Source: Platanthera guangdongensis
Taxonomy: Eukaryota > Streptophyta > Magnoliopsida > Asparagales > Orchidaceae
NCBI GenBank assembly: GCA_039583875.1
Contig: CM077150.1
Coordinates: forward strand, 49,986,261-50,050,260
DNA: 64,000 nucleotides
Direction of reading: 5' to 3'
A program made the translations under genes and the position numbers. Shown in pieces: positions 8,671 to 60,164 of this stretch (its first letter is position 1; the number at the start of each line of letters is the position of its first letter). Under the pieces are notes generated by a model, which made no database searches, was not told the origin of the DNA, and saw nothing but the letters and a program-made list of their open reading frames with translations.

Positions 8671-8678
8671 TATTTATA
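8671..8678 (-). promoter_or_regulatory. TATA box of C LTR
   Basis: GGTATAAATAC on the minus strand, repeated at 15727-15734 in the other LTR, directly downstream of the palindrome array. Confidence 0.6.
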
Positions 8679-8740
8679 CCAAAAGCATAAATAAACCTAG
8701 GCAAATCGCTATCCGCAGACCACTCGAAAATAGGGTTCAG

Positions 8741-9078
8741 AATCGGCGAGTATCAATCGGTGAGAATCGGCGACAATCGGCGAGAATCACTGAGCAGGTT
8801 CGGCGAGAATCAATCGACGTGTATCACACAGGATCGGCGAGAATCAGAGTACAATACTCGACGATTCTCGCCGATCATCGAGCCGCGCTCGACGATCCAC
8901 GGCGATACACGTCGATCGTCGAGCCGCGGTCGACAATACATGTCGAGGTCGTCGATCGTCGAGAATCAGTATATTGATTCTCGACGATTCTCGTCGATCG
9001 GCGAGAATCAGAGAGACGATTCTCGCCGATCGGCGGGAATCAGAAGACGATTCTCGACGAATGTCATCGACCCTCGGA
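8741..9078. repeat. Inverted-repeat word array in C 3' LTR
   Basis: Many copies of GATCGGCGAGAATC occur with its reverse complement GATTCTCGCCGATC and variants with TCGTCGAG. The strongest hairpin is at 8955-8988, with 14-bp perfect arms (ATCGTCGAGAATCA) around a 6-nt GTATAT loop. The array lies immediately upstream, in transcription sense, of the TATA box. Confidence 0.85.
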
Positions 9079-9304
9079 CGACAATCCTAACCAGCCCTCC
9101 AAGGCAACATTTGCCCAACCCGATGATTCTTTAAGGCAACACTTTGCCCACAACACCATTCTGGTCGGTGATTGGTAACCTTTACCAACACAGTCAATCA
9201 TCCAACTTCTCCACATCTCTAATGTGCGACCCTGCAGGTTCATATTGCGTTGACAGTGAGATTACATGTTTGACCACTTCCAGATCATCATGGTAACTCC
9301 AACA

Positions 9305-10273
9305 GACTCCCACTTGATCTCGAAAGTATCAAACCAAAAACCTCACAAACAATGAGCGGCATCTAGCAATGCATCATTGCTCCCCAAGCAATAAGAGTTA
9401 ATAACTCATAAGCCTTTATGACCAATGTATCAGCGTTGTCTTTGTCCCTTTGTCCCTTACATCCGGAAAGAACTAGGGGCATGGACCGTGTCACCCTCGT
9501 AATAGCTCAATCCAAGTTTCTTGATCTAGGATGGACTTCCAGAGAATGGTGAGTCCAATATCACATATTGACTCAACCAAGCATGGTCATGCATTTCTCA
9601 GTCTAGTTCCATCAAGGGGCCCATGGATGCAACTCCTGTCATATAGAAGGACAAATCCCATATCTGCTCACACACAAACACCCAAATGATTCGTAACATG
9701 CCCAACAACCACCCTTATCATCAACCTTTCTCAAGGAAGACTTTAGATGGCATCAAAGCACGCTCTTCCTCACTTGATGAATGCTGTGACTTCAGGTCAA
9801 AGGACCACAACACCATTGTCAATTGAGACTTACTCGTGACACAATTGGATGATAATCCACAGAGTAGTCTCAGGTTGGGTCTGTCCAGTACAACTTGTTC
9901 ACTAACAAGTACCCATGTGATGACTTGATATCACAATATCATGACCTGTGAGAACCAGTCATCAGTCAACGCACGTGCTAGTCTTCATGTACCATCATCA
10001 CCCTTAGCTTCTATGATGATACTCAACCAGGGACCTTTAAGAATGAAGCTTCAAATAAACCATAGGCTCTCACATTCAAGTCACGTACTTGATGTCCTAT
10101 GGAAGCGAACATTCTAAGGGTATCTATTATGTTAACATTTAACTATCATATATAGAAAAACTCATAATAAAAGAACTTGCCATTAATTATAAATGAAAAA
10201 CTAGGTACACAGTTCATCATATGAACAAACAGCCAACAAAATACATATTTACATGCAATCCACAAGATCCTCG
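9305..10273 (-). other. Element C 3' untranslated region
   Basis: About 970 bp between the pol stop and the 3' LTR. No ORF or repeat stands out. A purine tract lies at the LTR edge. Confidence 0.6.
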
Positions 10274-13200
10274 CTAGAGTTGATCATTTAGGTATCGTAT
10301 ACCCATCGATCTAGTATGGCCATCATGCTTTCTCTGCGCGAGAGGCTTTGTCAGCGGATCCGCAATATTTTCCTCAGTCGGCACTCTGCAAATGTTTACA
10401 TCTCCTCGTTCGACAATCTCACGAATAAGATGAAATCGCCGGAGTATGTGCTTGGAGCGCTGATGAGATCTAGGTTCCTTAGATTGTGCAATTGCACCAT
10501 TGTTATCACAGTAGAGAACTACGGGACCAACAATGCTAGGAACTACATCAAGCTCGCCGATGAATTTCCTAATCCATACAGCCTCCTTCGCCGCATTAGC
10601 TGCTGCGATATACTCAGCCTCTGTTGTAGAATCAGCAACTGTCTCTTGCTTGGAACTCTTCCAGCTCACAGCTCCTCCATTCAGGCAAAACACAAAACCT
10701 GACTGAGACTTGGAGTCGTCTCTATCAGTTTGGAAGCTAGCATCCGTGTAACCACTTACAACGAGCTCTTCCTCTCCACCATACACCAAGAATACATCCT
10801 TAGTCCTTCTTAAGTACTTCAGGACATTCTTGACTGCAATCCAGTGACACTCACCGGGGTCTGACTGATACCTGCTAGTCATGCTCAAAGCAAAGGAGAC
10901 ATCGGGTCGAGTACATAACATCGCGTACATGATTGATCCAATTGCCGAAGCATATGGAATCAATTTCATACGGTCCTTGTCTTCACAAGACTTTGGACAT
11001 TGGTCCTTAGAGAGATTCACACCATGAGACATGGGCAAAAATCCTTTCCTGGACTCAAGCATGTTGAACCGCTTCAACACCTTTTCGATGTACGTACTCT
11101 GGGTCAAACCCAGCAACTTCTTCGATCTATCTCTATAGATCTTAATACCAAGTATATAAGTCGCTTCACCCAAATCCTTCATTGAAAAGCAGTTCCCTAG
11201 GTTGTTCTTAACAACTTTCAGGGTAGGAATGTCATTCCCAATCAATAGTATGTCATCTACATACAATATCAGGAAGACAACAATGCTCCCACTGATTCGC
11301 TTGTAAACACAAGGCTCATCTTCATTCTTGATGAAACCAAACTCTTTGATTTTCTCATCAAAACGAAGATTCCAACTTCGAGAGGCCTGTTTCAGTCCAT
11401 AAATGGACTTATTCAGCTTGCATATTTTAGTGGCTTCATCTGGGGATACAAAACCCTCGGGTTGTGTCATATACACTTCCTCAAGGAGGTTTCCATTAAG
11501 GAAAGCCGTTTTGACATCCATCTGACAGATCTCGTAGTCATAATACGCAGCAATAGCAAGCAATATCCTAATGGACTTTACCATGGCAACAGGGGAAAAG
11601 GTCTCATCATTGTCAATACCATGAATTTGCTTGAAACCTTTAGCCACCAGTCGCCCTTTGAATGTCTGTACATTCCCATCCATGTCGGTCTTCTTCTTGA
11701 AGACCCACTTGCACCCTATGGGTCGTACCCCTTCAGGTGGTTCCACCAAGTTCCAAACTTTGTTTGCATACATGGAGTCCATTTCGGATTTCATAGCCTC
11801 AAGCCATTTGTCGGAGTCCGGTCCATTCATAGCCTCTTGGTAGGTTGCTGGTTCATCATCATGATCCATAAGCAACACATTACCTATTTGAGATACGAGA
11901 AATCCATATCTCTCAGGCTCAAACCTCGGTCTACCAGATCTACGTAGGACTTGTGTTCCCTGAGCAGGTTCTCTAGCTACAACATCTTGTAGTCCTGTCT
12001 CAGGATCCAATTCCGGTTCATTCACTACATGTGGTTCTTGAACTTCTTCAAGCTCTACCTTTTCAGTCTTTCTTGATAAGAACTCTTTCTCCAAGAAGAC
12101 ACCGGTCCTTGCGACAAACACTTTGCCCTCAGACGGTAGGTAAAAGTAATACCCTTTCGTTTCCTTAGGATATCCCACCAGATAACACTTATCCGATTTG
12201 GGTTCCAGCTTGTCAGGCATTTGACGACTCACGTATGCCTCACAGCCCCAAATTTTAATGAACGACATACTAGGACGCTTCCCAGTCCATATCTCATATG
12301 GTGTCTTCAGAACCGTTTTCGTTGGAGCGCGATTCAATGTCATTGCAGCAGTCTCTAAAGCAAAACCCCAAAAGGAAACATGCAAGTCTGCATGACTCAT
12401 CATCGAATGTACCATGTCTAACAGTGTACGATTTCTCCTCTCAGACACACCATTATGTTGTAGTGTTCTAGGTGGAGTGAGCTGTGATAGAATACCACAC
12501 TCTTTCAGATGATCACGGAACTCATGACTCAGGTATTCGCCACCTCGATCAGATCGGAGTGCTTTAACCCTTTTACCCAACTGGTTTTCTACTTCATTCT
12601 TGAACTCTTTGAACTTTTCAAAGGTCTCGGATTTGCACTTCATAAGATACACATATCCGTATCTACTGAAATCATCAGTAAATGTAACAAAGTAGAAATA
12701 CCCACCTCTAGCCATGGAACTCATGGGTCCGCATACATCACTATGTACAACACCCAAGAGATCCTCAGCCCTCTCAGTATAACCAGTAAAAAGGAGCTTT
12801 AGTCATCTTGCCTAACAAACAAGATTCGCATCGCTCAAATGATTCATAATCAAATGAGTCCAAAAGTCCATCTCTATGGAGCTTGGATATGCGCTTCTCG
12901 TTGATATGGCCCAAACGATAATGCCAGAGAAAAGTAGGGTTCGAATCATTTGTTCTTAGTCTTTTATTGTTTTCTACATTATAGATCAGATGGTCAAAGT
13001 TCAAAACATAAAGACCATTAAACAATTGGGCTACAGCATAACAAACATCATTCTTAAATATAGAACAACAATTGTTCTTAATTATAAAAGAAAATCCAAT
13101 CATGTCCAAACATGAAATAGATATAATGTTTCTAGTTATCGCCGGAACAAAATAACAGTTATCTAGTTCTATTACAAGCCCACTGGGCAAAGAAAGACGG

Positions 13201-13349
13201 TAAACTCCTACGGCTACAGCAGCAACTCTTGCTCCATTGCCGACGCGGAGGTCCACCTCCCCTTTACTCAGCAATCTTCTCCTTTCCAGTTCATGCACAT
13301 TTGTACAAATGTGAGAACCACATCCGGTATCTAATACCCAAGATGAAGG
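10274..13349 (-). pseudogene. Element C Pol: protease, integrase, RT, RNase H
   Basis: In order: aspartic protease WVLDTGCGSH; integrase zinc finger (HYRLGH ... CESC); integrase core with HSDVCGP, VTFTDDFSRYGY and the NGVSERRNRTLL region carrying the catalytic Glu; reverse transcriptase GCKWVFKKK ... QMDVKTAFLNG and catalytic YVDDILL; RNase H with GYTDASF, STTEAEYIA and LYCDNNGAI. It ends with KHDGHTRSMGIRYL near the stop at 10274. The order integrase before RT defines Ty1/copia. A one-base T gain in the run near 12793-12797 puts stop TGA after KMTKAPF, so the frame changes between integrase finger and core. Everything after the shift (827 codons) is open, which is consistent with recent inactivation. 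Confidence 0.9.
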
Positions 13350-14234
13350 AGCAGAAAGGTTTATCTCTATAACGTACACATTAGAAGCGGAAGTCATACC
13401 TCCCTTCAATTTCTGCAGACCCTCAATATACGAAGGACAGTTCCTCCGCCAATGACTAGCCTTGCCACATTGGTGGCATTTCCCTTCCTTCACCGTGCTC
13501 TTCTTTTTCATCAGTGCAGAATACTTGGGCTCAAGATATGACTTAGGTCCCACCATCGTCTTCTTAGAGCCCTTGTCCTTTCCCTTGCCCTTATGCACCA
13601 TCAGTATGGGGCTGGCATGCTTGGACTTCTTCATGTTGATTTCGGCAGTTCTCAACATGCCTAGGAGTTCGGGCAGTGTCTTGTCTATCTCATTCATGTT
13701 GTAGTTCAAGACGAACTGCTCATAACTGTCCGGCAACGATTACAGGATCAGATCCGTGGCCAACTCTTGACCAAGAGGAAAACCCAGTCTTTCAAGGTTC
13801 TCTATATACCCAATCATCTTGAGTACGTGAGTCCCTACTGAGTCTCGAACTCCCATCTTGCACTGAAACAACGCTTTTGTGATGTCGAACCTCTCTTGAC
13901 GAGCCTGCCCTTGAAACATTTTCTTGAGATGCTCGTCAATCTCCTTGCACCCCATGCTCTCATGTTGCTTCTGAAGCTCAGAGTTCATAGTGGCAAGCAT
14001 AAGGCACTCGACATCTAAAGCGTCGTCAGTATACTTCTTATAAGTATCTTTCTCAGCACGGGAAGAATTCCCGGTCGGCATCTCGGGGGCTTCTTCTTCT
14101 AAGACATAGAGCTTTCGCTCTTTCCTGAGAACAATTCTCAGGTTCCTGTACCAGTCCATGTAATTTGTCCCACTGAGCTTATCCTTCTCAAGGATGGCTC
14201 TCAGAGACAATGTGGAGTGTGAAACACTTGCCAT
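13350..14234 (-). pseudogene. Element C Gag (copia type), one stop
   Basis: The start MASVSHSTLSLRAI at 14234 is the first ATG after the leader. A UBN2-type copia Gag follows (YMDWYRNLRIVL near residue 26; DLIL near 160). A TAA at 13738-13740 interrupts DLIL / SLPDSYEQF; a glutamine codon would be expected there, so this looks like C to T. The continuation has a zinc knuckle CHQCGKASHWRRNC (CX2CX4HX4C intact) about 20 residues before the protease. Gag forms the virus-like particle and binds element RNA. It is fused in frame to Pol. Confidence 0.88.
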
Positions 14235-15198
14235 GGAATTCTACAAGAATTTATGCAGAATAAAATCAGTACCTAAATTTCAATTACAATTTATTCTAAT
14301 TAGGACTTCAATTAAAAAACTCCCACTATTTTATTCGAAATGATAGCCCTCACTAACAATTCGGAGAGTTCATGCGAGCTACTCTCTTAGTGGACAAGAT
14401 CCGTATTTCACCAACACTATGAGTCCGCTTTGGCGTTCCTCTCACGATGCGGTTATTTAGGTAGGCAACGCTTGCCAATTGCATCCTCATGCAATTCTTG
14501 TATGGTTGGTTAATAACTCCTTACTCGCATCCATCATATGGTGCATGCCAACCCTATGTCTCTAGGCACTCAACCTTTGAGGTCACCTAGTTAAGCTGGA
14601 CCCGATGTCGACAGTGGGATATCACAATTATCCGCTCGCACCCTTACCAAGATAGATTAATGCACCTTGCTTTGCCAAGCCCACACTTCATCGATCGAGG
14701 CAGGAAGAGTGTCATCCATCGGAAGTCATCCGAACACTTAATATTTGACGAAGGGATTTTAATTTTAGGTTAACAATTAACCATGATCAACATTTGATCA
14801 ATGTGCACATCCAAAGAAAAGCAATTTTTCTAAAACCACATGCATCCCTTATGTGCACATCCTGACACCATCAACATTTGATATAAGGAAGGGCTAAATC
14901 TGAACATCCAGAAATTTCCAAATCCTCAGATTTACATGTATTGGACAAAGGCGAAGACAACTCAACTTAAAGCAGTAGACAAGCTCATCTCTCTATGTTG
15001 GATTCAAAATCCAAAACATACTCGAGGGATGGTTACTGCTAAGGAGACAACAATTTCTAACACTTAGAAATTACATCGAAATTCCAGTCGTTCTTGGCGA
15101 GGTGCCAAGACTAAATCTAGACATTTAGAACACTTCTAAATCCCTAGGTTTACACGCACTGGAATAACACAACTTCCAAAACAACAGTCATGGTCGGA
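14235..15198 (-). other. Element C 5' leader
   Basis: About 960 bp between primer site and gag start. No ORF of note was seen on the coding strand. Confidence 0.6.
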
Positions 15199-15214
15199 CC
15201 TGGCTCTGATACCA
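15199..15214 (-). other. Element C primer binding site
   Basis: The minus strand reads TGGTATCAGAGCCAGG, one base after the 5' LTR ends. This is the standard plant tRNA-Met primer complement for copia elements. Confidence 0.9.
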
Positions 15215-15215
15215 C

Positions 15216-16360
15216 TGTTGGGTTTCTCTATGGGGGGGTGGCACAACGCTTGTGCACGCAGCGGAAAAGAAAACATCAAGAAAAACCCAAAGAGATGTGG
15301 ATCGGGCCATGAACGTTGAATCAAGAAGTTAGCAAAACTAAGCAAAAATTACCTCGGTGGCGTTGAGTCACAACTCAACGGAGAAGCTCCAAACTTTATC
15401 TTCTTGCTAGTGGCGAGTTCTACGTGGAATAGTGTCCACGTTTCTGCAGAAGTCCACACGAGCGGGAGAACGCCGATCTATCCGTCGCACGGATTATCGG
15501 GAAGGAGAAGACCGCACCTTTGCTTTCCCACGGACTGCTAGGTCCGCGCCAGGGATTGCAGCGCCAGCGACGATCGCCGGAGAGAAGGTGGTCAACGGAG
15601 CAAACACGGCGGCGGAACTCTTCCGGCGGCGGGATCGGGATCGGCGGAGCGAACGAGGAACTCTTTCCGTCGGGTTCGATTCGCACAGAAGAGATATCGC
15701 ATACATACCCGAAACCCTAAGTGTTGTATTTATACCAAAAGCATAAATAAACCTAGGCAAATCGCTATCCGCAGACCACTCGAAAATAGGGTTCAGAATC
15801 GGCGAGTATCAATCGGTGAGAATCGGCGACAATCGGCAAGAATCACTGAGCAGGTTCGGCGAGAATCAATCGACGTGTATCACACAGGATCGGCGAGAAT
15901 CAGAGTACAATACTCGACGATTCTCGCCGATCGTCAAGACGCGCTCGACGATCCACGGCGATACACGTCGATCGTCGAGCCGCGGTCGACGATACATGTC
16001 GAGGTCGTCGATCGTCGAGAATCAGTATATTGATTCTCGACGATTCTCGTCGATCGGCGAGAATCAGAGAGACGATTCTCGCCGATCGGCGGGAATCAGA
16101 AGACGATTCTCGACGAATGTCATCGACCCTCGGACGACAATCCTAACCAGCCCTCCAAGGCAACATTTGCCCAACCCGATGATTCTTTAAGGCAACACTT
16201 TTCCCACAACCCCATTCAGGTCGGTGATTGGTAACCTTTACCAACACAGTCAATCATCCAACTTCTCCACATCTCTAATGTGCGACCCTGCAGGCTCATA
16301 TTGCGTTGGCAGTGAGATTACATGTTTGACCACTTCCAGATCATCATGGTAACTCCAACA
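15216..16360 (-). repeat. Element C 5' LTR
   Basis: Same boundaries as the 3' LTR, with the palindrome array at 15797-16134, the 14-bp-arm hairpin at 16011-16044 and the TATA box at 15727-15734. It differs from the 3' LTR by scattered substitutions and a shorter G run. Confidence 0.95.
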
Positions 16361-16365
16361 AACTT

Positions 16366-17513: not shown

Positions 17514-18694
17514 TGGAAGACTATAAGTAGTATAAATCACCTAGAAGGGGTGGGGGTGAATAGGTGTTCATGATGGTTTTGGTGTCTAATTAATTTAAGC
17601 AAATTGAAGCACAAAAACCAAACACAAATCACAATACACAACATTTATAGTGGTTCCCCAGTATATGAGTACATCCACTTTTCCTCACAACCTATCTAGC
17701 AGTGTGCCAAAAGCTTTTCTCCTACCTCAGATCTTCATCAAGATCCTACCTTAAACTTCTCAACAAGTCCTACCTTAGGCCTAGAACAAGACATACAGTT
17801 AGGCTATCAATCTAGCCCTACAACTCAAATCTCATAAAAGATCCTACAAATGATTATTGATTATAGAATAGTATAATAAAAGACTCAATAAAAGTAGACC
17901 TTGAACTTCTGAGTCTTCTATTACATTGTTGTGAAAGCCTCCTTCTTGAATCAGCCCCTGAATATATAGATAGTCTTTAGTCAAACAAGATCCAGGGTTA
18001 TTCTTGATCTTCTTTACAACAAAACGAAGACCTAACTTTAGAGTTGTGTAGATTGACTCCTTGCACTTCTAAAATATCTTCAAAAAGAGATTACTCCAGT
18101 AGTAGCGACTTACAACCGCACCTCATTTTTCTCAATTCAAAAATCTCCATTCGTTACTGTTGGATTGCCCTAACTTATCCTTAAATACTCTTGAATTTTC
18201 CAACGGTAATGGATTAGAAAAAGTCCCATGAGAGTATGGGCAAGAAGGAAATGAGTTGACATCACCTTTCCACGCTTTCGCCAATTTGAAGTCTCGTCAA
18301 CCTAAGCTCTCAACAGTAAGAATGCTATCAAGGCAATATCATTTTGAAAATGTTCAGTCAAAATGATACTATCTTGAAATAGCTACCATTCATGAAAATA
18401 TTGTGGAGTACTTCTTCACTTATCAAACCAATTCAACTTGAACCACAATAACTCATCACTAATCAAACCGATTCAACTTATACACGAACAAATCTTCAAT
18501 TGAACTGAATTAGAGATATAAGTGAGTTTACTTATGCTCTTAACTAATCTCATGACCTACTGAGATTCATTATTAACATGAGAAACTTGACCTGCATAGA
18601 TTCAAAATAGAATTTTCATCAAAGTTAATATGTACTTATCATTGTGAGAGGTACTTCTTCAAATCCTGGAATATCGAGGGTGATATTCCCAACA
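17514..18694 (-). repeat. Element D 3' LTR
   Basis: The right edge is CCCAACA at 18694 (minus: TGTTGGGAATATC), next to a decayed purine tract. The left edge is uncertain, taken at TGGAAGAC. It contains the GGGGTGAATAGGTG end block shared with B, E and F, and the shared stem-loop (17650-17678). A weak inverted pair, ATATCATTTTGA / TCAAAATGATA, lies near 18334-18377. Confidence 0.65.
17650..17678 (-). promoter_or_regulatory. Shared LTR stem-loop block, D copy
   Basis: On the minus strand: GTGG, ATGTA, CTCA, loop TATAC, TGGG, GAA, CCAC, then TATAAAT. CTCA can still pair with TGGG through a G-U pair. The same layout occurs in A, B and E. Confidence 0.5.
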
Positions 18695-21234
18695 ATCTTT
18701 CTCTATTTTAAGAAGTCAGAACTCATGTCCAATGATAAGATACATAACTAACAAAACCAAATCAACATTGAAATAAACAGTTTAATATAGAATTGAAAAC
18801 ATAACTGCTTGCAACAAATATATGAATATGAATATATATGTTTCCATAGGGTTTAAATTAATTAAAACATAAAAATAGCACATACTCAATCTCAACATAG
18901 TTCTCTGCCAATCAAGATACAAGGAATTTGCCAATCAATTGACTAAAGTCATCATCAAAATCTGAGTATTACTCTGTCTGGATAGGTTCACTAGATGCTT
19001 CTCCAATTTCAACAGGCCTCTTTCCATCTCTTTTCCTTTTGGCCTCCTACTATGCAAAATACTTGTGGGGTTTAGGAATATGTCTACATGACACCTTGAT
19101 TGGATTCTGCCTACTCATATTTTCCTTGATAGTATTCTCTCTTATGGTCTTCCTTTCTAGGTGCTTGACCAATTATTCAGATGGATAGACAATATCAATA
19201 TCAAATCTAATATGTCCATTGCTTATCCATGAATCCATGATAATGGACTTAGAGTCATCACTCTAGTATTCATAGTTAGGATCCTTAGAGTTCTTCTTTC
19301 TCTCAGCAAAACTCCTCAAGATGCATGGTCCCATCTCTTTCTCTTTTCTTTGCCCTCTGCTCATCCTGAGGATCATGTCTTCCTTTTTCTTTGATGAATT
19401 CATCAGAGGGTTCATATAGGTCCAGTAGAAGAAGGTTGAGTGCTACCCATATCCCTTGAAGATTCCATAGGGATTGGTCAGCAAATACACACTCCCCCTT
19501 TCCGGCTTCTTCCAATATCATGATATCCAGGTGAATTGCAATTGCCTGAAATCTGCTTGATAGGGTCTGGAAGATATTTTCATTGTCCCCAATAATAACA
19601 TCTCTTGCCTCTTCAACCAACTACATGGCTTGAATATGAGTGGAGTAAAAATATTTTTCAATGTGATCAACTCCTTGTCAAATACTTTCATCTGACTAGC
19701 TAACATAATATTTTACACTTGTTATGTCCTGAGTGCTGAGCCTCAGACTTTCAGCCATTTATCTTAGGATTTTTACATTTTCACATATAGTACTGGCAAC
19801 TTTGTCAGACCATTTAGTAATTTCAGCATTGATATATGTATTGTCACCTTTTAGAACATCTAGTTCTTCCAAAATTTCAGTCATGACATTTTTCACCTCT
19901 TTTAGAATATCAAATTTTATACCCTTCATAAATTCATCAGTGTAAGCTCTCTATTCAGCTAGCATCATTTTCATGGTAGCTAATATTAAGTTTGTTAGGT
20001 ATGATGGTGCTCCACTATTAACAGTTTGAGGCTGGACTAGGGGTGTTCTTAGGTCCTCTTGGACTGCCAACTCAAGATGGGAGCATCCTCAGCCTCTTAA
20101 GACAAAGGCAGACCACCAAAAAGAGCAGGGAGCTCAAGTAATGCCTCCCCCTCACTACCATCATCACCACTTAGGAATTATCAAGAGAGTCAACTCATTC
20201 CTCTTCTTCACACTCCACCTCAGTTGGGTCATCAGTCTTTACCATAATATTTGCCTCCCTCCTCAGATGTTGCTTCATTTTCCCTAGGAGTAAACACATT
20301 CTTAGTAAGGTTATCTGAATCAAGCTGAGCTTGGACATTTCCATCCTAATGATAATATTCTTTCTCACCTGAGGATGATAAGTTGGGGTCTTTAATTCAC
20401 AGACCTCCTTCTCACCAGCATCTTCTAAATCTGAGCTGTCTATAGCAACTGCCTTCTTTCCTTTATTCTTTTTCTAACTCTACTTCTGTAATGGGGCCTT
20501 TGTCAGAATTTTTCATACCTTTTCAAGATCTTGATGTTTATTCTTTTCATGTAATGTATCTTTGTACCCTTCTTCTATTTGAAGTGCTCAGGGTAAGCAT
20601 TCACAAGGTATATAGAAAATATCCTTCCTATGTTGGGAGCTTGGATACTCTCAAGAATTCTTTGGAAGACTACTCCATACTAGTTGGTCTTCTTATTTAG
20701 AATTACATAGCTCATGAGTTCAAACATGAACTTAAAGATTCTATTATGAGAGCCTAATTTTCACAGTAGGGCTTTACCAATGATATCTGTAATAAGCTTT
20801 CCTCTTTGATTAAATAATTTTCTTTCCAAGGATCCATATATTTCACCAGTGAATTCACACCAATAAAGAGCATCAACAATGTCTTGCTTTATAGTTTCCA
20901 GAAGTTCTTTTTCAACTGCGGGAGGAAGGCGTAGTGCCTTGCCAAGTATCTTAGGGTTGATATTTATTTTTGCCTCCCCAGTTTTGCTTTTGATAGACTG
21001 ACTAACAGAAGATACTTTTGCATTCAAATATAGTTCCATTTCTTCCTTCCTTAGAATTGGACATGGATCTGACATAATATACTCCAGGTCGTAGTCATTC
21101 AGTTGTTGGATTACTGACCTTACATCTTCAAAAGCTAATTGAAATCCCCATCGAACAACCTTATTACCTTCATGAGGTGATTTCTCTTTTTTGGGAGCCA
21201 TTACAATGAAGGCCTTATCGTTGTAAGTACTCAC
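18695..21234 (-). pseudogene. Element D ORF3, degenerate, with 3' untranslated tail
   Basis: The open stretch 21234-20761 begins MSTYNDKAFIV and contains a better start, MAPKKEKSPHEG, at 21201. After a stop it continues as a segment around SHNRIFKFMFELMSYV and IGRIFSIYLVNAYP. This parallels B ORF3 (GGHDRVSAYMFSLMTRI, LGRIMSLYLAGTIP) and A ORF3 (SAHDTISRHPLCLMGAL, FGRILGVFLQ), which shows common descent. A later stretch at 19706-19303 (KVFDKELITLKNIF) looks coiled-coil. From about 18.7 to 19.3 kb only remnants remain. The function is not established (see A ORF3). Confidence 0.6.
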
Positions 21235-21301
21235 GTGAGGTGAAGAGTTGATGACGGTATATTATGGAACGAGAGTTTATGTTCTAAACTTAACCCTTTG
21301 G

Positions 21302-21302
<1 letters not shown>

Positions 21303-21352
<50 letters not shown>
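21303..21352. repeat. (TA)n microsatellite at the TATA position of D ORF3
   Basis: About 24 TA units. Read on the minus strand it ends TATATAAGCC about 100 bp before the likely ORF3 ATG at 21201, the place where A and B have a single TATA box. Confidence 0.85.
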
Positions 21353-21355
<3 letters not shown>

Positions 21356-21439
21356 ATATATCTCAAAAATATGAAAATTAAAGAGTCGTGTACCTGTAGT
21401 GGTGATGTATTTCAAGATCTGATGGCTGAGATTTAAAAA

Positions 21440-21660
21440 AATGATCAATAAAATCCCGCCAAGATGATATGACTTTGATAGAACGGTATCATTCAAAACA
21501 ATCTTGATGATATCGCTTTGACAGAGCGTTGTCATCTTGAGTCCTCAAAACGATCAAGACAATATCGTCGACATAGCTTCAGTCAGTCTTCTTTTCATCG
21601 TTTCGAACCTTCTTTGAATCAAGACGATACAATCACTATAATAAGTGAGAGTCAAGTGTC
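21440..21660 (-). promoter_or_regulatory. D ORF3 upstream region with decayed inverted words
   Basis: Between the pol end and ORF3 there are repeats around CAAGATGATAT, GGTATCATTC, TTGATGATATCG, GTCATCTTGA and CAAGACAATATCG in both orientations. They partly match words in D's LTR (CAATATCATTTTGA). The array is much decayed compared with A and B. Confidence 0.45.
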
Positions 21661-21784
21661 TTATACTTAGTTGTCCCTGTAATCATGGTTAGTAGCCTAA
21701 CATCTACCAGATTATAATATCTAGCAGTTAATTATAACAATGAAAGAAGAATAATATGCAGAAAGTACTGCTCCAAGATAAGCA

Positions 21785-22355
21785 TATCCAACTCAATTTT
21801 TTAAAAAAATTGAATTTGTTTTCATCCAGAGGCTTAGTTAAGATATCAGCCACTTATTTGTCGGTGGGAACAAACTCATGGCTGACATCGACCTTTTCAA
21901 CATACTCTCTTATAAAATAATACCCAATATTTATATGCTTAGTCCTATTGTGTGACACATGATTCTTAGCTATAGAGATGGCACTGGATGAATCATAAAA
22001 CATTGGGATTTTACTTATTTGGAGATTGTAATCATGCATCTGAAGATGAATCTACTCCAGTTGTGCATAATAGTTGTATGTTGAGATGTACTCTAACTTA
22101 GCTATGGATATAGATAGCCATTGATCTGATTCTTGCTGCTCCATGAGACCAATCTCCTTCCTAAGAACTAGCATATTCCTGAGGTACTTTTTCTATCTTA
22201 TTTTCAACTTGCAAAATCTGCATCTAAAAACCCTATCATCTCAAAATCATTGTTCCTAAGATACCAAAGGCCAAGTTGTTGGGTCCCCTTAAGGTATCTG
22301 AAAATCCACTTTGTAGCTGAGTAATGGGATTCCTTGGAGCATGCTTGATACATAG
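21785..22355 (-). pseudogene. Element D Pol C-terminus (RNase H), left part
   Basis: The minus strand starts at SHYSATKWIFRYLKGT and LGLWYL, then DRKSTSG, FLGRRLVSWSS, and the open stretch 22039-21854 with FYDSSSAISIAKN and RTKHINIGYYFIREYVEK. It ends with ADILTKPLDENK. These are copia RNase H and tail motifs. Several stops occur. It breaks at 22355 where solo LTR E begins. Confidence 0.75.
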
Positions 22356-24585: not shown

Positions 24586-24659
24586 ATTAAATTCAACTTG
24601 TGTTTTTCTGTTTTGGAGAGCATCTGACTATCCTGCTTCATGTAGTCTAATGCAACCAG

Positions 24660-29015: not shown

Positions 29016-29306
29016 GATCGTCGAGCTCAGCACGACGATTCATCGAACTCCGGTCGACGATCGTCTAGCTCAACTTCAACAGATCGTCGAGCTCCATTCG
29101 ACGATCGCTGAGCTCAACTTCATAATATCGTCGAACTCCATTCGACGATCGGTGAGCTCAGTTCGACGATTTTGACTCTGCTTTGGATCTTTATCTCTGA
29201 GCTCAGTTCGACGATCTTTGAGCTCAGATCGACGATTATTTTGCTGCTTAAGTTTTCCAGATCGCTGAGCTCAGATCGACGATAGCAGAGCTCAGTTCGA
29301 CGATTT
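29016..29306. repeat. ATCGTCGA inverted-repeat array in A LTR1
   Basis: Repeated pairs such as ATCGTCGAA, CTCCA, TTCGACGAT (9-bp arms, 5-nt spacer) and GAGCTCAGTTCGACGAT. Equivalent arrays lie in LTR2 (39540-39830) and LTR3 (50125-50415). Confidence 0.92.
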
Positions 29307-30490: not shown

Positions 30491-32545
30491 ATGGCCCAAA
30501 ACAAAGATTATGCTAGCACCAGACCTCCAGTGTGCAATCTGTCAAAGTTTGCACTTTGGAAAGCAAGGATTAGACTTTACATGAATTCTATTGATGAAGA
30601 CATATTTAATTCTGTTTTGACAGTGTGTCCAAGACCCCCAGAAAGTACAAGTACAAATGTTGTTCCACCTCCATCAGGAACAGATGCTGACATCAAAAAA
30701 TGGAAAGTAGCTAATGCCAAGGCTATGAACATTCTAGCTCAGACAATGTCAGATGACATTTTTCAAAAGGTAGCTGAATGTAATTCAGCCAAGGAAATTT
30801 GGGATAGACTCTCAGAAATAGTCTCAGGCTCAGCTGACGAGAGAAAGGACAGAAGATCCCATCTCATCACTCAATATGAGAACTTCAAGAAGGGAGTGAC
30901 TGAGTCAGTGGGAGACATGTACAATAGACTGAGTCTAATTATCAGTGAACTGAGGACATTAGAGAAAGAGATCTCTCTAACAGAACTTAATGACAAGATC
31001 CTAATGTGCTTCCCCAGCACTTGGGATTCAAGAATCTGGCCAATTAAAGATGCCAGAAGTTTGAATGAGATCACCACTGAAGCCTTGTTGGGTAAGCTCA
31101 AATCTTATGAGCTGCTCATCAAGAATAGAGAGGAAGAACAGAAGGCTGCTTCACCAGCCACAAGAAAGGAGAAGACCATAGCATTCAAGGCAACTAAGGA
31201 TCTGCCTGAAGATAAAGCTACAGGCAATGATGAACTTCTCAGCTTGTTGGCCAAAAGATTCTACAAAATGGCCAGAAAGGACTTCAGAAGAAGATCATAC
31301 AAGGAGCAGGACAAGCCAAGGTATGACAAGTCCACTGGTAATAACAAAAACATTATTTGCTTTGGTTGCAGGAAACCAGGGCACATAGTTCCTGACTGTC
31401 CAGAGAACAAGAACAAGGACAGAAGGGACAGAAAAGAAAGAAGGAAGGAGAAAGACTCCAAAAGAAATGGCAATAGCAAACCTTCCTCAAGCAAAAATAA
31501 GCATACAAGGAAAGGGTTTGTTGCTGAATCCTGGAGTGAGACTGAAGAGGAGTCAGAAGCCTCTTCCAGCTCCAGTGATGATGAGGATGATGCAGAGGAA
31601 AAGGAGTTCTGCATGATGGCAATCAATGCCTCATAGTACAATTCAGAGGAAGAAGAGTCAGAGTCAGACTCAGAGACTCAACCTGAAGAAGATCAGGTAA
31701 TTAGCTCTTTTGACTTTAGTTCAGAAGATTTTAAATCTGAATTTAAAGCACTGTGTTTGGACCTGCTAAAGTCTGAGAAAGAGATTATCTCTCTCAGAAA
31801 TCAATTATCTGAACACAATGTTTTAAAGTCAGAAAACCTCAAACTCTCTCAGGAGTTGGAGAACTGTATGAAACAGATAGCTACACTGAAAAGTGAGCTC
31901 TCTGAGGCCAAGAAGCTTGAAGAATCCCTTAATGGGAGAAGCATCAAGCTGATGGACATCACAAGCACAGTGAACTCTAGATTTAACAGTACACTGGGCT
32001 TGGGTGCTTCATCCAGCCAACCTATAGTCCTAACAACTCCCATCAAGTTCATTTCTGACAAGGGAAAGGGAGTTGTAGAGGTTGCTAGGAAAAATTCTGA
32101 TTTGCCTCAGAAAACTAAGTCCCAGCAGAAATCGTCGAACGAAGATCGACGATCGCCGAATGAAGATCGACGATCGCCGAACGCAGCTCGACGATCTCAG
32201 GAAAAATCGTCGAACGCAGATCGACGATCTCAGCTAAAGTCGTCGAACGCAGGTCGACGATCTCATATACCTGACCTCAGCCATAGTCGACCGTCGAACG
32301 GAGCTCGACGATCTGACCCAAGATCGTCGAACGCAGCTCCAAGATCGTCGAACAGAGGTCAGAGCTCTGGAAACTTTTTCAAAGGCAAGTCAAAATTGAA
32401 TCCTAAGGGTTCTTCATCCCAAACCTTTAACCCTTATACTGAATGGATTCTACCTCCAAGGAGATATCATCCTGAAGGATATAAGAGTCAGCCAGGGATG
32501 TCTTTCATTTCTGAATTTAAAGGTTATCAACTAGGCCCAATGTAA
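30491..32545 (+). pseudogene. A1 Gag, one stop and one frameshift
   Basis: The start MAQNKDYASTRPPV follows a 127-bp leader. UBN2-type copia Gag with EIWDRLSEIVSGSADER, then a Lys-rich linker and an intact zinc knuckle CFGCRKPGHIVPDC (about residues 298-311). An acidic Ser/Glu/Asp stretch follows, then TAG at 31634-31636 where A2 has CAG. The frame resumes with a coiled-coil segment (LLKSEKEIISLRNQLSEH) and a SSNxxRRS repeat tail (32131-32352) encoded by the ATCGTCGA word. A missing C near 32531 relative to A2 gives stop TAA at 32543. Gag would package the RNA. Confidence 0.9.
32131..32352 (+). repeat. ATCGTCGA word array inside A1 gag
   Basis: About nine units of TCGTCGAACGCAGATCGACG type, imperfect palindromes that translate as SSNADRRS-like repeats. 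The A2 copy is at 42652-42872. The word is the same as in the LTR and upstream of ORF3. Confidence 0.9.
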
Positions 32546-35731: not shown

Positions 35732-36223
35732 TATCCAAGATTTTGAAAGCTAAAAATTGACCAAGACTAGGCAAAAATTCTAATTTTTCTTAGTGTATAG
35801 AATTTTCTGATCTCTGAACTGCGCTCGACGATTTCCCCAAAGATCGTCGAACGGAGTTCGACGATTTCCAGAATCGTCGAACTGAGTTCAGCGCCTCTCA
35901 GATAGTATGAACTATCTCTTCCGGTCAACGATCGTCGAATGGCGCTCGACGATGTTGTTCACTGAACGATCGTCGAACGGAGCTCGACGCCTTTCAAGAT
36001 CGTCGAACGGAGATCGACGATGTTGGAGTCTCTTCAGATTCCTTTAGAATCCTCGATCGTCGAACTGAGTTCAACGATCTTTCCAATTCTGCGTCGAACC
36101 CTAATATAAAACTCATTTTTCGCCGTCGTTCTCTTTTGCGCTTTCGATTTCTCTGCAAGAATTTTCTTCCCTCCAAACAGTTCTACGCTTGGTCGTTTTG
36201 TTTGTTAAGTTTTTGCAGGTACA
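35732..36223 (+). promoter_or_regulatory. A1 ORF3 upstream region: palindrome array, TATA, acceptor-like site
   Basis: 35818-36109 holds repeated pairs such as ATCGTCGAAC, GGA, GTTCGACGAT (10-bp perfect arms) matching the LTR word. TATAAA at 36105-36110 lies 119 bp before the ORF3 ATG. A pyrimidine-rich tract and TTTTTGCAG end at 36218, five bases before ATG, which would also fit a 3' splice site. A2 has the same layout (array 46340-46631, TATAAA 46627-46632, ATG 46746). Confidence 0.6.
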
Positions 36224-39190
36224 ATGGCTGTATCAGTTGCTGTCCTAGCCGCAATGAAGTTTGATGCAGGCTTCGACATTGATATGGAATCATTCAGCAC
36301 TACTGACCAAGTTTTCCAAGACATTCTGAGTTTATTCAAGGATCAGAATCTGTCTGCCCTCATGACCACCAGGATAAAGCTGGCCTCAGATGAAATCAAG
36401 GAATGGGTTTACACTGCTCATAATCTAGACAACAACACAATAGTTGGGTCTATTGCTGGAAACCAGGTACCCTTGACCCCCACAGTTTTAACAGAGATTT
36501 TTGGACTGAGAAATGGAGAAGAATCTGGTGAGTTATCTGGGGAGGAGTTTTCTGACATGCTTGCCAGGATGTGTCATCCAGAGGGAAACCCTAGCAAGCT
36601 ATTCAAGAGGAATCTATCTGTTGAATACAGATTCCTGGCAGATGTAGTAGGAAAAGTGCTGCTGGCAAAGCACTCTGCTCATGACACTATATCCAGACAT
36701 CCGCTCTGCCTCATGGGAGCTCTAGTGGATAAGAAAAGTTTGAACTGGGGAGAGATCTTCTTTGACCTAATCAAGAAGAAAATCAATAAAAGCTTTGTTA
36801 ACTTTGGCAGGATTCTTGGAGTTTTTCTGCAGACAAAGTGCCCTGCCTTGCTGGTCTCCTCTGGAGTTCACATTAATGCCTCCAAGAGACTTACCTGTGC
36901 CCTCTTTGGCAAGTGGGACAGGCAAATAAGCAAGCCAAGCAGGCCCTCCTCTAGTGCTCCTTCAGGCACCAGGACTCAAAAAGTCACTCTCCCACAGGTC
37001 TCTGCTCCTTCAGAAGACCTGGCTGCTGCTGTTGCTGCCTCTCCTCCTCCTCCAAGTCCAACCCTACCTCTACCATCCACCATTCCAGCTCCATCCCCCA
37101 TTACCATATCCAGCCCATCTCTAACCTCAACTCCATCTCCAGCACCCATTCTACCTCCACCAGATATCACATCATCACCATCCATACCATCCTTCACCCT
37201 TCTAGATGACTCCTACATGGATGATTCCCCCTCATCTCCTCCAGAGTTACCCTCCTCCTCAACTTCATTCCAAGATCTCCTCCACCATATCATTGACCAA
37301 CCAACTTTCACCCCATCCATATCCATCCCCTTGTCCTCCATTTCCACCATCCCAACACCTGAGCCATCCATTCCACTCTCCAGCCCTCCACTTCCAGCAT
37401 CCTCAGCTATCCCTATTCCATCTACCTCTGCTCTTGTTGTTGAGCATGTAGACCTCTCAGCCCTAGCTGACAAGTTGTATGAGCTAATTGCCACCAGGCT
37501 CGCTCTACTCTTAGAGACCTCATTGGCTCCTCTACACTTGTCAGTGGCAGCCCTCTCTGCCAGGCTTTCCTCCCTCCTTCCTCAGGCAGCACCACCAGCA
37601 GTTTGCCTTGATACAGATGTATCTGCATCTAGGCAGGTGGAGATGCCATATGAAGCAAGCCTTCATACTGTTGCTGCTGCTGTTTCTACTGTTTCTGCTC
37701 CTGCTGCTGATGATACTGCTGCTGCTGATGTTTCTGTGTCTGCTGCCTCTTCTGCCACTGTTGCTGTGCCTCCAGAATGTCAGGCTCCTACTGCAGTTCT
37801 TGCAATAGACCTAAGGTCTTTGCTTTCTGCCTTTGATCCTGCCTTCTTCAGCTATCTCCCAGAGGTTAATGCTGTCCAGCCCCCAGAAGATTTGTCCAAG
37901 GCACTGGTGCCTGTCTCTTGCTGTGACCCTAGCATTATCTCTGCATTTGTACATTCAGTGATTGCTGCTACTGAAGTTGCTGCTGCTGCTGTTGATAAAG
38001 AAAACACTGACTTTGCTTCTGAAACTGTTGATACTGCTGAGATTGTTCACACTGCTGCTGAAATCCCAATTGCTTCTGATGAGCAAACATCCAAGGATCT
38101 TCTGATGACAGAGGCCATTGATGTTGAGCCTGCTGCAGAGTTTGATGTTGTTACTGATGTGAGTGAGACTGTTATAGTTGATGCTGTTGTTGTTCCTACT
38201 TCACCTCCTGTATCTGCTGCTGTTCAGCTGAAGAAAGAATTGATGAAGAAAATAGATGCTATATATGATGACCAGAGTTCTAAGACTGATGAATTCAAAA
38301 CAGACTCTGATGATTCAGCTGCTACCATTGCCAGAAAAAGGAAGGCAAGGAGCAAGGAAATGAAAAGAGTTCCTCCTGCAAAAGTCAAGGATAATAATGA
38401 TATTCCTTATTATATTCTGCATAACTGCCAAATTACTGAACATTGGATGCAGTATTCCAAAAACCAGCTGAAAGCCATGAAGAAGAAGAGAAAGTATGAG
38501 AAGGGCTCCTCCCAATTCCAGCACCCTCATCCTCCTCCACTACCTCCTCCTGATGTAGGTGCAGGTGGAAGCTCTGCAAGTCAAGCCCCAGCTAGAAGCT
38601 AGGCTCCCTATCAACCCCATGCCAGATCCTACCAAAGAGAAAGCCAATCTAGGGGTTCTTATTCTAGGAGAGGAGGATACAGGGGTAGTCAAAGAGATTT
38701 TCAGGTTTATTCTAAAGGGTATTCCAGGCAGCACCCATACTCCAGGGGAGGACATGTTTCATCTGATACTACTTCTGGTCCATTCCCCTACAAGCTAAAA
38801 GAGACAGTGTCTGCTAGGCCTCCTCATGACAATTCTTCCAACAGGTATGAGCCACCTGTACCATTTGAGGACCCTGAAAATAATCCAGCTGCTTGGACTG
38901 CCAGGATGAAGGAATTGGCTGCACTAGATCAGATTAAGAAGGCCAAAGAACAAGGGCTAGATACTTCCAACATTTCTACAATGTCTGAGCAAAGGCAAAA
39001 AGAATTAGAAAGATATGCCTCCAGTAAATTCTTTGACGCTGACAGATATATGGAGTTGCATCCTGCTGCTGTGGTTCCCAGGTCTTCAAAGAAAACATAC
39101 TTGGGTGCAGCAGATGACACCAGATCCAACAAAGAAGCCCTGAACCCTAACAGAGAAATCAAAATGGTTAAAGGCAAAGAGAAGAAGTGA
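36224..39190 (+). pseudogene. A1 ORF3, one stop, about 988 codons
   Basis: Starts MAVSVAVLAAMKFDAGF. Residues 1-240 look globular (VPLTPTVLTEIFGL; ADVVGKVLLAKHSAHDTIS; NFGRILGVFLQ) and match B and D ORF3. 240-440 is Pro/Ser-rich, 440-690 Ala/Val/Ser-rich with acidic patches, about 700-760 Lys/Arg-rich (KRKARSKEMKR, MKKKRKYEKG), 800-845 Arg/Gly/Ser/Tyr-rich. TAG at 38600-38602 replaces CAG of A2; the frame then continues to TGA at 39188. I see no signal peptide or clear membrane span, so an envelope role is not supported. A nuclear or RNA-binding role is possible (inference). The N-terminal part weakly recalls the plant 'putative transposon protein' domain found in many plant genomes. Confidence 0.75.
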
Positions 39191-46253: not shown

Positions 46254-46339
46254 TATCCAAGATTTTGAAAGCTAAAAATTGACCAAGACTAGGCAAAAAT
46301 TCTGATTTTTCTTAGTGTCTAGAATTTTCTGATCTCTGA

Positions 46340-46631
46340 ACTGCGCTCGACGATTTCCCCAAAGATCGTCGAACGGAGTTCAACGATTTCCAGAATCGTC
46401 GAACTGAGTTCAGCGCCTCTCAGATAGTATGAACTATCTCTTCCGGTCAACGATCGTCGAACGGCGCTCGACGATGTTGTTCACTGAACGATCGTCGAAC
46501 GAAGCTCGACGCCTTTCAAGATCGTCGAACGGAGATCGACGATGTTGGAGTCTCTTCAGATTCCTTTAGAAGCCTCGATCGTCGAACTGAGTTCAACGAT
46601 CTTTCCAATTCTGCGTCGAACCCTAATATAA
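46340..46631 (+). promoter_or_regulatory. A2 ORF3 upstream array and TATA
   Basis: The ATCGTCGAAC inverted-pair array abuts TATAAA (46627-46632), 119 bp before ATG 46746. Same layout as A1. Confidence 0.6.
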
Positions 46632-46745
46632 AACTCATTTTTCGCCGTCGTTCTCTTTTGCGCTTTCGATTTCTCTGCAAGAATTTTCTTCCCTCCAAAC
46701 AGTTCTACGCTTGGTCGTTTTGTTTGTTAAGTTTTTGCAGGTACA

Positions 46746-51469: not shown

Positions 51470-52773
51470 AACTGGTTGTGGAGCAGTTTGCAATGCCCTT
51501 TATAGCTTTGGCTTCTTCTTTTGAAAACCATCAGCTTTCTCTTCTTTGCTTGAATTTCTGCTTCATCTTCAGAAGCTGAGGTACTTGCTATATCAACTCT
51601 TTTCTGAGGACTAGGAGGCAGTTTATTTTCATTCCTAGGTTGCTCCCCCTCAACTCCAGCTTGCTCCCCCTCAATTTCAGCTTGCTCCCCCTCAGTCCTA
51701 GCTTGCACTATATCAGGGAACAACTCTTCAAGGGTATACTCTTGTCAAGTTGGGACTTGAGGCACCACCAACTCAGGTGCTTCAATAGCTGTAGATGTAT
51801 CCTCCATGATAACATCCTGTGCTAGACTGTTGAGTTGAGTGGTCTGGTCAACATCAACCAAGGGCACAGTTAGTGTTTCATTCTCATTATTAAAAATTGT
51901 TTTATTAACTTCTTGGATTACCTCAAGAATAGTTTGAGTAGCCATTTCACTTTCTAAGTGTGTTGGATCCTCCTCAAGATGAGGCTTCCCCTGCACCTGA
52001 GCACCATCTGTAATGTCTTGTGTAGGAGATTTTTCAGCAATCTCTGGCCTCTCTTCATCAGACATGTCCTTTGTTAGAACTCTATCCCATCTGGAGATTA
52101 TCCTTATATCCATTCTTCTCATGTGGTTGATTTTAGAACCAGTAGTCTGTTCCATTACTTCTGGAATTGTTCCAGCCAAGTATAGACTCATGATTCTTCC
52201 CAGATTTGGCTTCTTGATACCTTCCTTAATCTTTTCAAAGATTACTGCAGACCAATCTGTGTTCAGTCTGAAGATAATCCTGGTCATCAGGCTGAACATA
52301 TAGGCTGAAACCCTATCATGTCCCCCTATCTTGTAGAAAATGACCTTTCCAACCACTTCAGAAAGGAATTTTCCTTATAGATTCATCCCTTTCCTATTCA
52401 TTGCAGATCCAATCTTCATGGTGGGATCCAATCCACACCACTGGAATGCTTCCCTGGTCTTGGTAGAGGTAACTTCTTCATCTTCTTGAGTTTTGGGCAG
52501 ATGAAGAGTTTTTCGTATGCTCTTCATGGTGAGTTTGATTTTATTACCCTGGATTGAAGACCTAATCTTTAATCCAGTAGAATCCTGAGTTGCAGCTCCA
52601 TAGAACTCAAGGATTTCCTTCTTCCATATCTTAGTAGGTTCGGATACCTGAAATTCCAAACCATTCATAGTAATTAGGGTAATTACTGTTTTAATCTCGG
52701 GTTCCGCATTATCAAAAGCGTTGCGAACCAGCTCATAGCCTTCGTTGACGTTATCTTCAAGCTTTGGCACCAT

Positions 52774-53264
52774 TGGGGTTGAGAGAAATCTTGGATTGAG
52801 AAGAGAGAATTTGTCGACACAAGGTTCTGTTCTCGAAAATATGGAGAGTGTGTCGACAGAGTATGTTGTTGACCTATTTATACCCGTCTAAATAATGAAG
52901 GTCAAAGGCACGTCAAAATTCTCTTAATGTGTCGACACAGTTGAAATGTGTCGACACAGACTTCTAATGTCTCGACAGAATTATTGACTTCTATGTGTCG
53001 ACACCAATTGATGATATGTCGACACAGACATTCTTATCAGTTCGACAGAAATTCTGTGTCGACTATAATTCTAAGTGTCGACACAACTTCTGGATGTGTC
53101 GACACAACTGCTCTGAAGTGTCGACACCAATTTTCTAGATGTGTCGACACCACTTTCGTGGAGTGTCTACTCCAACTACTATGTGTCTACACAGACAACT
53201 TTTTGTGTCGACATAATTTTACTTAGCTAAATTTGTTAGACTATTTTATGTTCAACATTCTTAA
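52774..53264 (-). promoter_or_regulatory. B ORF3 upstream region: GTGTCGACAC array and TATA
   Basis: Seven exact GTGTCGACAC copies plus variants between 52811 and 53214. On the minus strand GGGTATAAATAGG (TATA 52874-52882) lies about 109 bp before the ORF3 ATG at 52773. The word and the order match B's own LTR, where the array is followed by CTATATAAAG. Confidence 0.65.
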
Positions 53265-58529: not shown

Positions 58530-58531
58530 CT

Positions 58532-60140
58532 TGAAAGAATTAGTTCCTAAACACCTAGAGGGGGGGGTGAATAGGTTCAATTCTTTTTCCTTCTAAGGCA
58601 GAATATTAATTCAGTTAATTAATAGAAACATAGAGTTCTACAGCTATCACAGCACAGAAATAATAATACCACACACAATCACAGATGGCACACTGATTTA
58701 TAGTGGTTCCACACTCCTACAGCTCAGGCAATCTGCCCTACCTCAGCCTTCAACAAGGCCTACAACTCAGAGATGAAAATCTCCTACAACTCAGGCTCTC
58801 AGCCCTACCTCAGCCTTCAACAACGCCTACCACTCAGAGAACTTAATCTCCTATAACTTAGCCTTTATAAATCAGGCTTACAACTCAAATCTTAAAAAGT
58901 TCGTACTGAAAATAGATGTAAATTTGAAATTTACCACCACCCTGGTTGAGAGAGAAAGGATGGAAGGTTTCTTGATCAGTTCTTGATATAATCTGATGTT
59001 AGAGATCAACCTGTCTTAGCTTTCTTCAAAGCTTCTTGAATCTGAACACAGTAGGGTTGATCTCCTTTGAAGTTGATCTTCAATCAGCTTCTTTCTTGAA
59101 ATTAAGAAATCAATCTGAATTCTTCTTGGCACACTGGTTCAGAATCTACACTTAAGAGACTTGTTGATGTAAGTCCCTTTCTTCACTTGAATATATGGAG
59201 CTCTCTCTCTCCAAATTCTTCTGAAGATTCTTCTGAATTTTTCTTTGAATTCTCTTGACAAACTCTGAGTAGATCACCACTTAAGAATGTTTTCTTAGAT
59301 CTTCTGTTGAAAATCTTCTTCTATTTTTCGTATTTTTTATCTCATCTATCTCTATATATATATCCTTCTTTTGTTGATAGAGAATGTCTTTATATAGACT
59401 TCCTCCATGGTAACCGTCTGATCCAGTTTCTAACGAACTTCTGACAGCTCTGACAGCTTCAGTAGACTTGTTGAATATCACAGCTGTCAAGTCTTCAGTC
59501 ACTTCTTGAAACTCTGTCTCTGTCAGCAAAGTGTCGAGACTGAACTTCATCATGTGTCGACACAAGTAGACTAAGTGTCGACACAAGCCTTGGTGGTGTC
59601 GACATAGCTCCCTTGGTGTTGACACTGCTTCTCGACACAACTTCTGTAGAATGTGTCGATACTAGTTATGTGTATTGACACAGTCACTTCTTCTCTTCAC
59701 AAAAAAATTAACTTTGTTGAAACTCTGCTATGTGTCGACACAAGTCCTGTGTGTCGACACAGTTGATGTCGAGAAAATCTTCTGTGTGTCGACACTGCCT
59801 CTGTGTGTCGACACAGTTGATGTAGACTAAGCTTTTGTGTCGACACTGCCTCTGTGTGTCGACACAGTTTCTTCTGGTGTCGACACAGCCTTTCCAAGTG
59901 TCGACAAAATTGACTCCAGGTGTCGACACAGCTTTTCTCCAGTATCGACACAAGCCTTCATAAGTGTCAACACAGCTTCTTCTGGTGTCGACTCATGGAC
60001 TTAGAAACTTTTCCTGCATTCCTGCATTTTCTTAACCTGCACATATAAACTCAAAACAGCATCAAATACACATTGATGCATATCATTGAGTAAGGTGAGG
60101 CTTCTTCAAATCTGGTACACATTTTCCAATGTACCCAATA
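58532..60140 (-). repeat. Element B 5' LTR
   Basis: 1609 bp. Array 59531-59993, TATA 59388-59397. It lacks 141 bp present at 22707-22847 in the 3' LTR; the join is at 58710 between two TCC triplets. It has the uninterrupted GTCTTAGCTTTC site that the CACTA element split in the other LTR. Confidence 0.94.
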
Positions 60141-60164
60141 ATGTTGGATAAGAAAAAATAGGAT

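Follow-up and report, generated by a model that had tools for sequence, protein, structure and literature searches.

How is the third open reading frame (ORF3) of Sirevirus-like retrotransposons expressed when it lies several hundred nucleotides downstream of pol? This question is raised by a 64,000-nt stretch of the orchid Platanthera guangdongensis (assembly GCA_039583875.1, contig CM077150.1, forward-strand positions 49,986,261 to 50,050,260; hereafter the window), in which Copia elements are nested: as deduced from sequence matches, element A (plus strand) lies within B (minus strand) and B within D (minus strand), with C (minus strand) further left. A preliminary description of the window had proposed that ORF3 of A, B and D is transcribed independently and co-controlled with the long terminal repeat (LTR). 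We consider it probable, at roughly 0.6, that ORF3 of these nested orchid Sireviruses has its own RNA polymerase II core promoter, which would share cis-acting words with the LTR. In A, a TATAAAA box at 36105 would direct transcription to start about 30 nt downstream, and the transcript would run through an ATG-free leader to the ORF3 start, ACAATGG. Just upstream, the family-specific array of palindromes would be the same cis-element as that in the LTR, and with one element in both places a single trans-acting factor would tune the genomic RNA and the mRNA of ORF3 in concert. Transcription from this site, factor binding and co-regulation with the LTR are what we infer from the sequence; the coordinates of all features are collected in Table 1.

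The words that make up the arrays are confined to a few places in each element. In A, the word ATCGTCGA and its complement were together counted 11 times in the LTR and 10 times each before ORF3 and in an array inside gag; there is none in gag before that array or in the remainder of gag, in pol, in ORF3 or in the stretch after ORF3. In B, the words GTCGACAC and TGTCGACA, taken on both strands, number 35 in each LTR stretch and 30 before ORF3, with none in gag/pol or in either of two ORF3 stretches. To compare LTRs with pre-ORF3 regions, shared 8-mers were counted against a null of 300 dinucleotide shuffles. The LTR and pre-ORF3 region of A shared 115 (null mean 32, maximum 53) and those of B shared 122 (null 31, maximum 57), in both cases above every shuffle, which bears out the earlier claim that each element repeats its own LTR word before ORF3. 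Sharing with the other element's LTR did not rise above the shuffles, either for the A pre-ORF3 region and the B LTR (24; null 26) or for the B pre-ORF3 region and the A LTR (40; null 30, maximum 50). The words had been described as unrelated to each other, and between A and B this holds; however, the A pre-ORF3 region shared 62 8-mers with the LTR of C (null 22, maximum 42), so that the words are not wholly family-specific. The related word in the C LTR lies at 8858-9000 and 15914-16050, although C has no room for ORF3, and a shared trans-acting factor is possible. Pairing of LTR and pre-ORF3 words was thus found in two of the three ORF3-bearing families of the window (A and B), D not being significant. 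The idea that the pre-ORF3 region arose by duplication of the LTR promoter was rejected: among the blastn matches listed, no similarity extended beyond the arrays and, by eye, the 7-bp unit centre of the A LTR array is inverted relative to the units in gag and before ORF3.

A TATA box follows the array in both copies of A and in B, at the distances from the ORF3 ATG that had been given for them (119 nt in both A copies, 109 nt in B). From shuffles of the last 200 nt, the probability of a TATAWA motif at -160 to -60 was 0.008 and 0.007 for the two A copies and 0.014 for B. An array with a TATA box had been claimed for D as well, where the "TATA" is a (TA)n microsatellite with a shuffle probability of 0.79. 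Going upstream from the ORF3 ATG, the next ATG lies 204 nt away in A, 258 nt in B and 291 nt in D. All three frames of the space between pol and ORF3 are closed by stops, which speaks against stop-codon read-through from pol into ORF3 of the SIRE1 type, and this route was set aside. An acceptor-like TTTTTGCAG is present at 36210-36218, 5 nt before the A ORF3 ATG.

Part of this arrangement is recognizable in a relative. The P. zijinensis gene model P0002 reads through the pre-ORF3 region of a related element and, when aligned to the window, presents in order word repeats (DRRTE), the TATA block, a leader, the residues FCR and the ORF3 start. Its identity with A amounts to 11 of 12 residues over the TATA block (36088-36123), 3 of 25 aligned residues over the leader (by eye) and 31 of 46 at the ORF3 start; the FCR closing its leader is the counterpart of residues derived from TTTTTGCAG in A. 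In A the corresponding frame meets a stop at 35908, lacks a later ATG and is not that of ORF3, so that the simplest reading of the match is one of DNA and not of protein. Copies of A were also aligned, 28 in all, i.e., the window's two and 26 others; these were the best 28 of 40 scored matches (of 1206 candidates), and the sample is therefore biased to similar copies. TATAAAA was intact in 27 of the 28.

Elements that lack ORF3 served as controls. The linker word array is absent after pol in two ORF3-less Sirevirus-like elements, C and L037. In C, 35 words were counted in the LTR, none in the stretch after pol and two elsewhere inside the element. L037, which was met in blind samples (200 kb, 20 stretches) and whose reverse transcriptase is 59% identical to that of A, has a word of its own that was counted 13 times in the LTR and not at all before it, the LTR start being set by eye. 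In a further element, L039, seven words were counted in the LTR and none in the linker; as the part from pol to ORF3 appears to be deleted, this element is no test of linker words.

For the ORF3 protein of A, Pfam lists only Transposase_32, and weakly (E 1.4e-7, score below Pfam's cut-off); DUF1985 is not listed. Nine relatives at E <=0.001 were found among 7991 candidates scored, all of them named Platanthera, and IMG/VR returned no relatives of A ORF3 or A pol. The best 19-residue hydropathy is a borderline 1.71 in an Ala/Val-rich segment, and basic clusters (RKRK and KKKRK) lie near the C-terminus. No clear membrane segment is apparent, no dedicated predictor having been used; the envelope label would seem to gain no support. 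The predicted fold of the N-domain had a pLDDT (predicted local distance difference test) score of 41.6 and was not used for a fold search. Over the first 1477 nt of eight A copies, the ratio of nonsynonymous to synonymous polymorphism (pN/pS) was 0.34 by a crude count; in a simple reading, three of these copies are open and five have at least one stop. The ORF3s of B and D are recognizable but broken relatives of that of A, and ORF3-like open pieces of B resume beyond the A insertion, at 27.5-28.7 kb. In the blind samples ORF3 matches occurred in two of the 20 stretches; both resembled A (84% and 93% identity), and no further ORF3 family was found there.

The case for an internal promoter is thus made by the confinement of the words to LTR and pre-ORF3 region (plus gag in A), the comparison of own with foreign LTRs, the rarity of the TATA in shuffles of A and B, the TATA block kept in P0002, the clean leader, the stops between pol and ORF3, the two ORF3-less controls and an ORF3 pN/pS below 1. 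Several observations weigh against it. A TATAWA motif at the same distance was also found for 157 of 1725 and for 188 of 1725 positions sampled in the window, about 10% in this A+T-rich DNA, so that taken singly each TATA box is of modest weight. A TATA-like box had been said to follow the LTR array as well; B does have one (TATATAAA, 165 nt past the last word, in both stretches), as does C (TATAAATA, 71 nt past the last word), whereas TATAWA is absent after the array in all three A LTRs, with only one AATAAA within 250 nt. The D LTR, its ends set by eye, shared 47 8-mers with its own pre-ORF3 region, within the null (35, maximum 56), and D was dropped as a third case. Conservation of the TATA block comes from one relative, with DNA deduced from amino acids, and in that relative the frame of the block continues into ORF3, so that a longer reading is possible there. 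Among the 28 A copies the pairwise difference of the TATA block (2.2%) resembles that of the leader (3.0%), array (2.1%) and pol (2.6%); with CpG-context sites excluded the values are 1.5% for the block, 1.3% for the array, 3.0% for the leader and 2.6% for pol. Constraint on block and leader within A, for which eight copies had given 0.6% and 0.5%, was not upheld in the 28. The acceptor-like TTTTTGCAG near the ATG is kept in most of the 28 and apparently in P0002. Finally, the array inside A gag lies away from any obvious promoter, which means that an array need not imply one. Of the original proposal of an independently transcribed, co-controlled ORF3, the kept TATA block, the ATG-free leader and the stops would favour acceptance, while the acceptor-like motif and D tell against it.

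Alternatively, an RNA initiated in the LTR could be spliced to yield the ORF3 message, with an acceptor at ~36218, between TTTTTGCAG and GTACAATGG, the arrays being splicing or packaging signals or bystanders. We regard this as unlikely, even though the acceptor-like motif is found in A and most of its copies, the FCR ending the P0002 leader would read TTTTGCAG-like, and four gene models (P0001, P0004, P0007 and P0013) have different upstream sequence joined close to the ORF3 ATG; spliced env-like RNAs of some other plant elements are also mentioned in the literature (PMC2829016, PMC7264820). These four are predicted gene models and not transcripts, the splice donor would be putative, and by eye no such motif stands beside the ATG of B or D. 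Splicing would, moreover, leave the kept TATA block and the word pairing unexplained.

That the arrays are non-regulatory, fast-spreading palindromic repeats, with a TATA arising by chance in A+T-rich DNA and ORF3 poorly or not expressed, appears quite improbable. The spread of the A word into gag, the roughly one in ten sampled positions with TATAWA at that distance, the lack of clear special constraint on TATA and leader among copies and the interrupted ORF3s (five of the eight A copies) speak for it; the TATA block kept in P0002, the limitation of the words to LTR, pre-ORF3 region and one gag spot, the ORF3 pN/pS of 0.34 and the missing post-pol array in ORF3-less elements speak against it. 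Small RNAs concentrate on the LTR palindromes of maize Sireviruses (Bousios et al. 2016, cited in PMC10760457 and PMC5311732), and the arrays might accordingly act mainly through RNA hairpins, as hotspots for small RNAs or as targets of silencing, irrespective of the promoter that adjoins them. This we hold to be very improbable: hairpins alone would not favour a place before ORF3 or a presence that depends on ORF3, and the same two sources also put the palindromes in the cis-regulatory region.

The third array of A, inside gag and not noted in the preliminary description, is translated, so that one word stands in a coding and a non-coding place. The spacings of its units are all multiples of 3 in both A copies (6 of 6 each) and in L039 (5 of 5); before ORF3 this is true of 3 of 5 spacings, and in the LTR of 4 of 8. 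At the same place, P0071 of P. zijinensis keeps three such units, of which the last ends in F; it was the sole match of the search, and its gag is 51% identical.

With respect to the elements as a whole, A has a tandem structure in which three LTRs alternate with two bodies (LTR-body-LTR-body-LTR) on the plus strand at 28847-51470, which is most simply explained by recombination between copies. The pol of A copy 2 has the Copia order, integrase (rve, 134-230) before reverse transcriptase (RVT_2, 499-741). The polypurine tract (PPT) AGGGGGAG lies at 39361 and 49946 in A, 10 nt before LTR starts at 39371 and 49956; outside the LTRs there is one copy in A copy 1 and two in A copy 2. Further copies are found in the B region (28255, 51643, 51664 and 51685) and, by eye, many in L037. 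In the latter they stand ahead of the LTR, within the stretch 2857-4000 that holds the LTR word GCGTTGAG/CTCAACGC. The primer binding site (PBS) TATCAGAGC is exact in C at 15203, and PBS-like sites are present in B (TATCAGAG at 58519) and, with one mismatch, in A (TATCAAAGC at 30369 and 40890). A polyC-rich signal, spelled TCACCCCCCT as taken from the window itself, lies near the LTR end at 30323, 40844 and 51429 in A and at 22557 in B. Judged by pol order, PPT and polyC signal, the nested elements are probably Sireviruses (Pseudoviridae). Adjoining the probable 3' LTR of D, at 16862-17240, is a D-like LTR start in opposite orientation with the palindrome AAAATGATATCATTTT.

Table 1. Coordinates of the features discussed, as positions in the window.
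Feature	Position	Strand	Remarks
A copy 1 pre-ORF3 array	35810..36078	+	23-bp imperfect palindromes ATCGTCGA-N7-TCGACGAT, 6 units at <=3 arm mismatches
A copy 1 candidate core-promoter block with TATA	36088..36123	+	reads SASNPNIK[L/I]IFR
A copy 1 TATAAAA box	36105..36111	+	119 nt before ORF3 ATG
A copy 1 leader	36124..36223	+	pyrimidine-rich, no ATG; ends in acceptor-like TTTTTGCAG and ACAATGG start context
A copy 1 ORF3	36224..38602	+	792 aa
A copy 2 pre-ORF3 array	46332..46600	+	6 units
A copy 2 TATAAAA box	46627..46633	+	119 nt before ATG at 46746
A LTR arrays	29017..29304, 39541-39828, 50126-50413	+	9, 8 and 9 units
A gag array	32131..32345 (copy 1), 42652-42866 (copy 2)	+	7 units in copy 1; translated as SNxxRRS-like repeats
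B ORF3 start	51745..52773	-	broken by stop after 132 codons
B TATAAAT box	52876..52882	-	109 nt before ORF3 ATG
B pre-ORF3 array of GTGTCGACAC	52929..53150	-	7 exact 10-mers
B 5' LTR	58531..60142	-	carries GTGTCGACAC array and TATATAAA
B other LTR	within 22530-27285		with insert
D pre-ORF3 region	21201..21790	-	(TA)n run at ~21309-21351
D probable 3' LTR	17525..18693	-	ends set by eye
C, Sirevirus-like	8150..16364	-	no room for ORF3 (control)

For A and B the pattern is confirmed, and it has been known in kind since Bousios et al. 2010 (PMC2829016), contrary to the preliminary description, which had taken it to be undescribed. That study reports repeated palindromes (RMs) in 13 Sireviruses. 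In nine elements bearing an envelope-like gene (ENV), matching palindromes stand in the LTR and before ENV, and 77 of 79 linker RM copies precede ENV; four ENV-less elements have none (PMC2829016). An internal promoter, a hypothesis that the authors attribute to Peterson-Burch and Voytas 2002, was favoured there and none was conclusively identified (PMC2829016); MASiVEdb likewise includes an internal promoter among the modes of expression (PMC3414828). Among later papers, as represented by their titles and the start of their abstracts, none was found that maps such a promoter, subscription papers lying mostly outside the search. The orchid elements agree with the RM system in having one high-copy palindrome per element, found both in the LTR and immediately before the extra gene, in lacking linker words where that gene is absent, and in suggesting an internal promoter. 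They differ in that a CGG-CCG core, present in 12 of 13 RM elements (PMC2829016), is absent from the words of A (ATCGTCGA...TCGACGAT) and B (GTGTCGACAC). A TATA box soon past the LTR array is described for all but two RM elements (PMC2829016). A also has its third array in gag, none being named in the 2010 sections, and a candidate core promoter can be located here. Where the ENV promoter was left unidentified in 2010, these multi-copy elements now point to a particular TATA with its predicted start and a leader that lacks ATG. We regard as new the concrete candidate core promoter, apparently kept in one relative, the words without a CGG-CCG core and the predicted translated gag array.

Among other systems, SIRE1 resembles A in being a Sirevirus with an ORF after pol, its envelope-like ORF being reached by stop-codon suppression (PMC2829016). 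In contrast, several hundred nucleotides with stops in all frames separate pol from ORF3 here. Grande is a Ty3/gypsy element and VANDAL a DNA transposon. Gene23 of maize Grande (Gomez-Orte et al. 2013; reviewed in PMC7264820), whose product is nuclear, is likewise an additional gene that lies past pol and ahead of the 3' LTR and has its own promoter; unlike ORF3 it is antisense, and the parts of the review available to us show no pairing of LTR and promoter words. It is also conceivable, though we consider it a long shot, that the arrays are family-specific sites for a nuclear, non-envelope ORF3 product that would activate or de-silence both the LTR and its own promoter, words and protein changing together in what would be a retrotransposon counterpart of VANC or Tas, and that ORF3-less elements with related words (C beside A) would be trans-activated. 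If the arrays do bind an element-encoded factor, a large group of plant retrotransposons would have a self-regulation loop. In VANDAL, binding by the anti-silencing protein VANC was shown in vivo and in vitro (PMC5735166, PMC10398659), whereas the present case is made from sequence, with an ORF3 in which Pfam lists no DUF1985; the two are alike in having short words, specific to each family, that form non-coding repeat arrays and differ quickly from one related element to the next. Foamy virus is a vertebrate retrovirus whose factor, Tas, is virus-encoded and known, unlike the putative factor here, and it provides the parallel of a single factor that acts on both an LTR promoter and an internal promoter (PMC8670036, PMC4929722).
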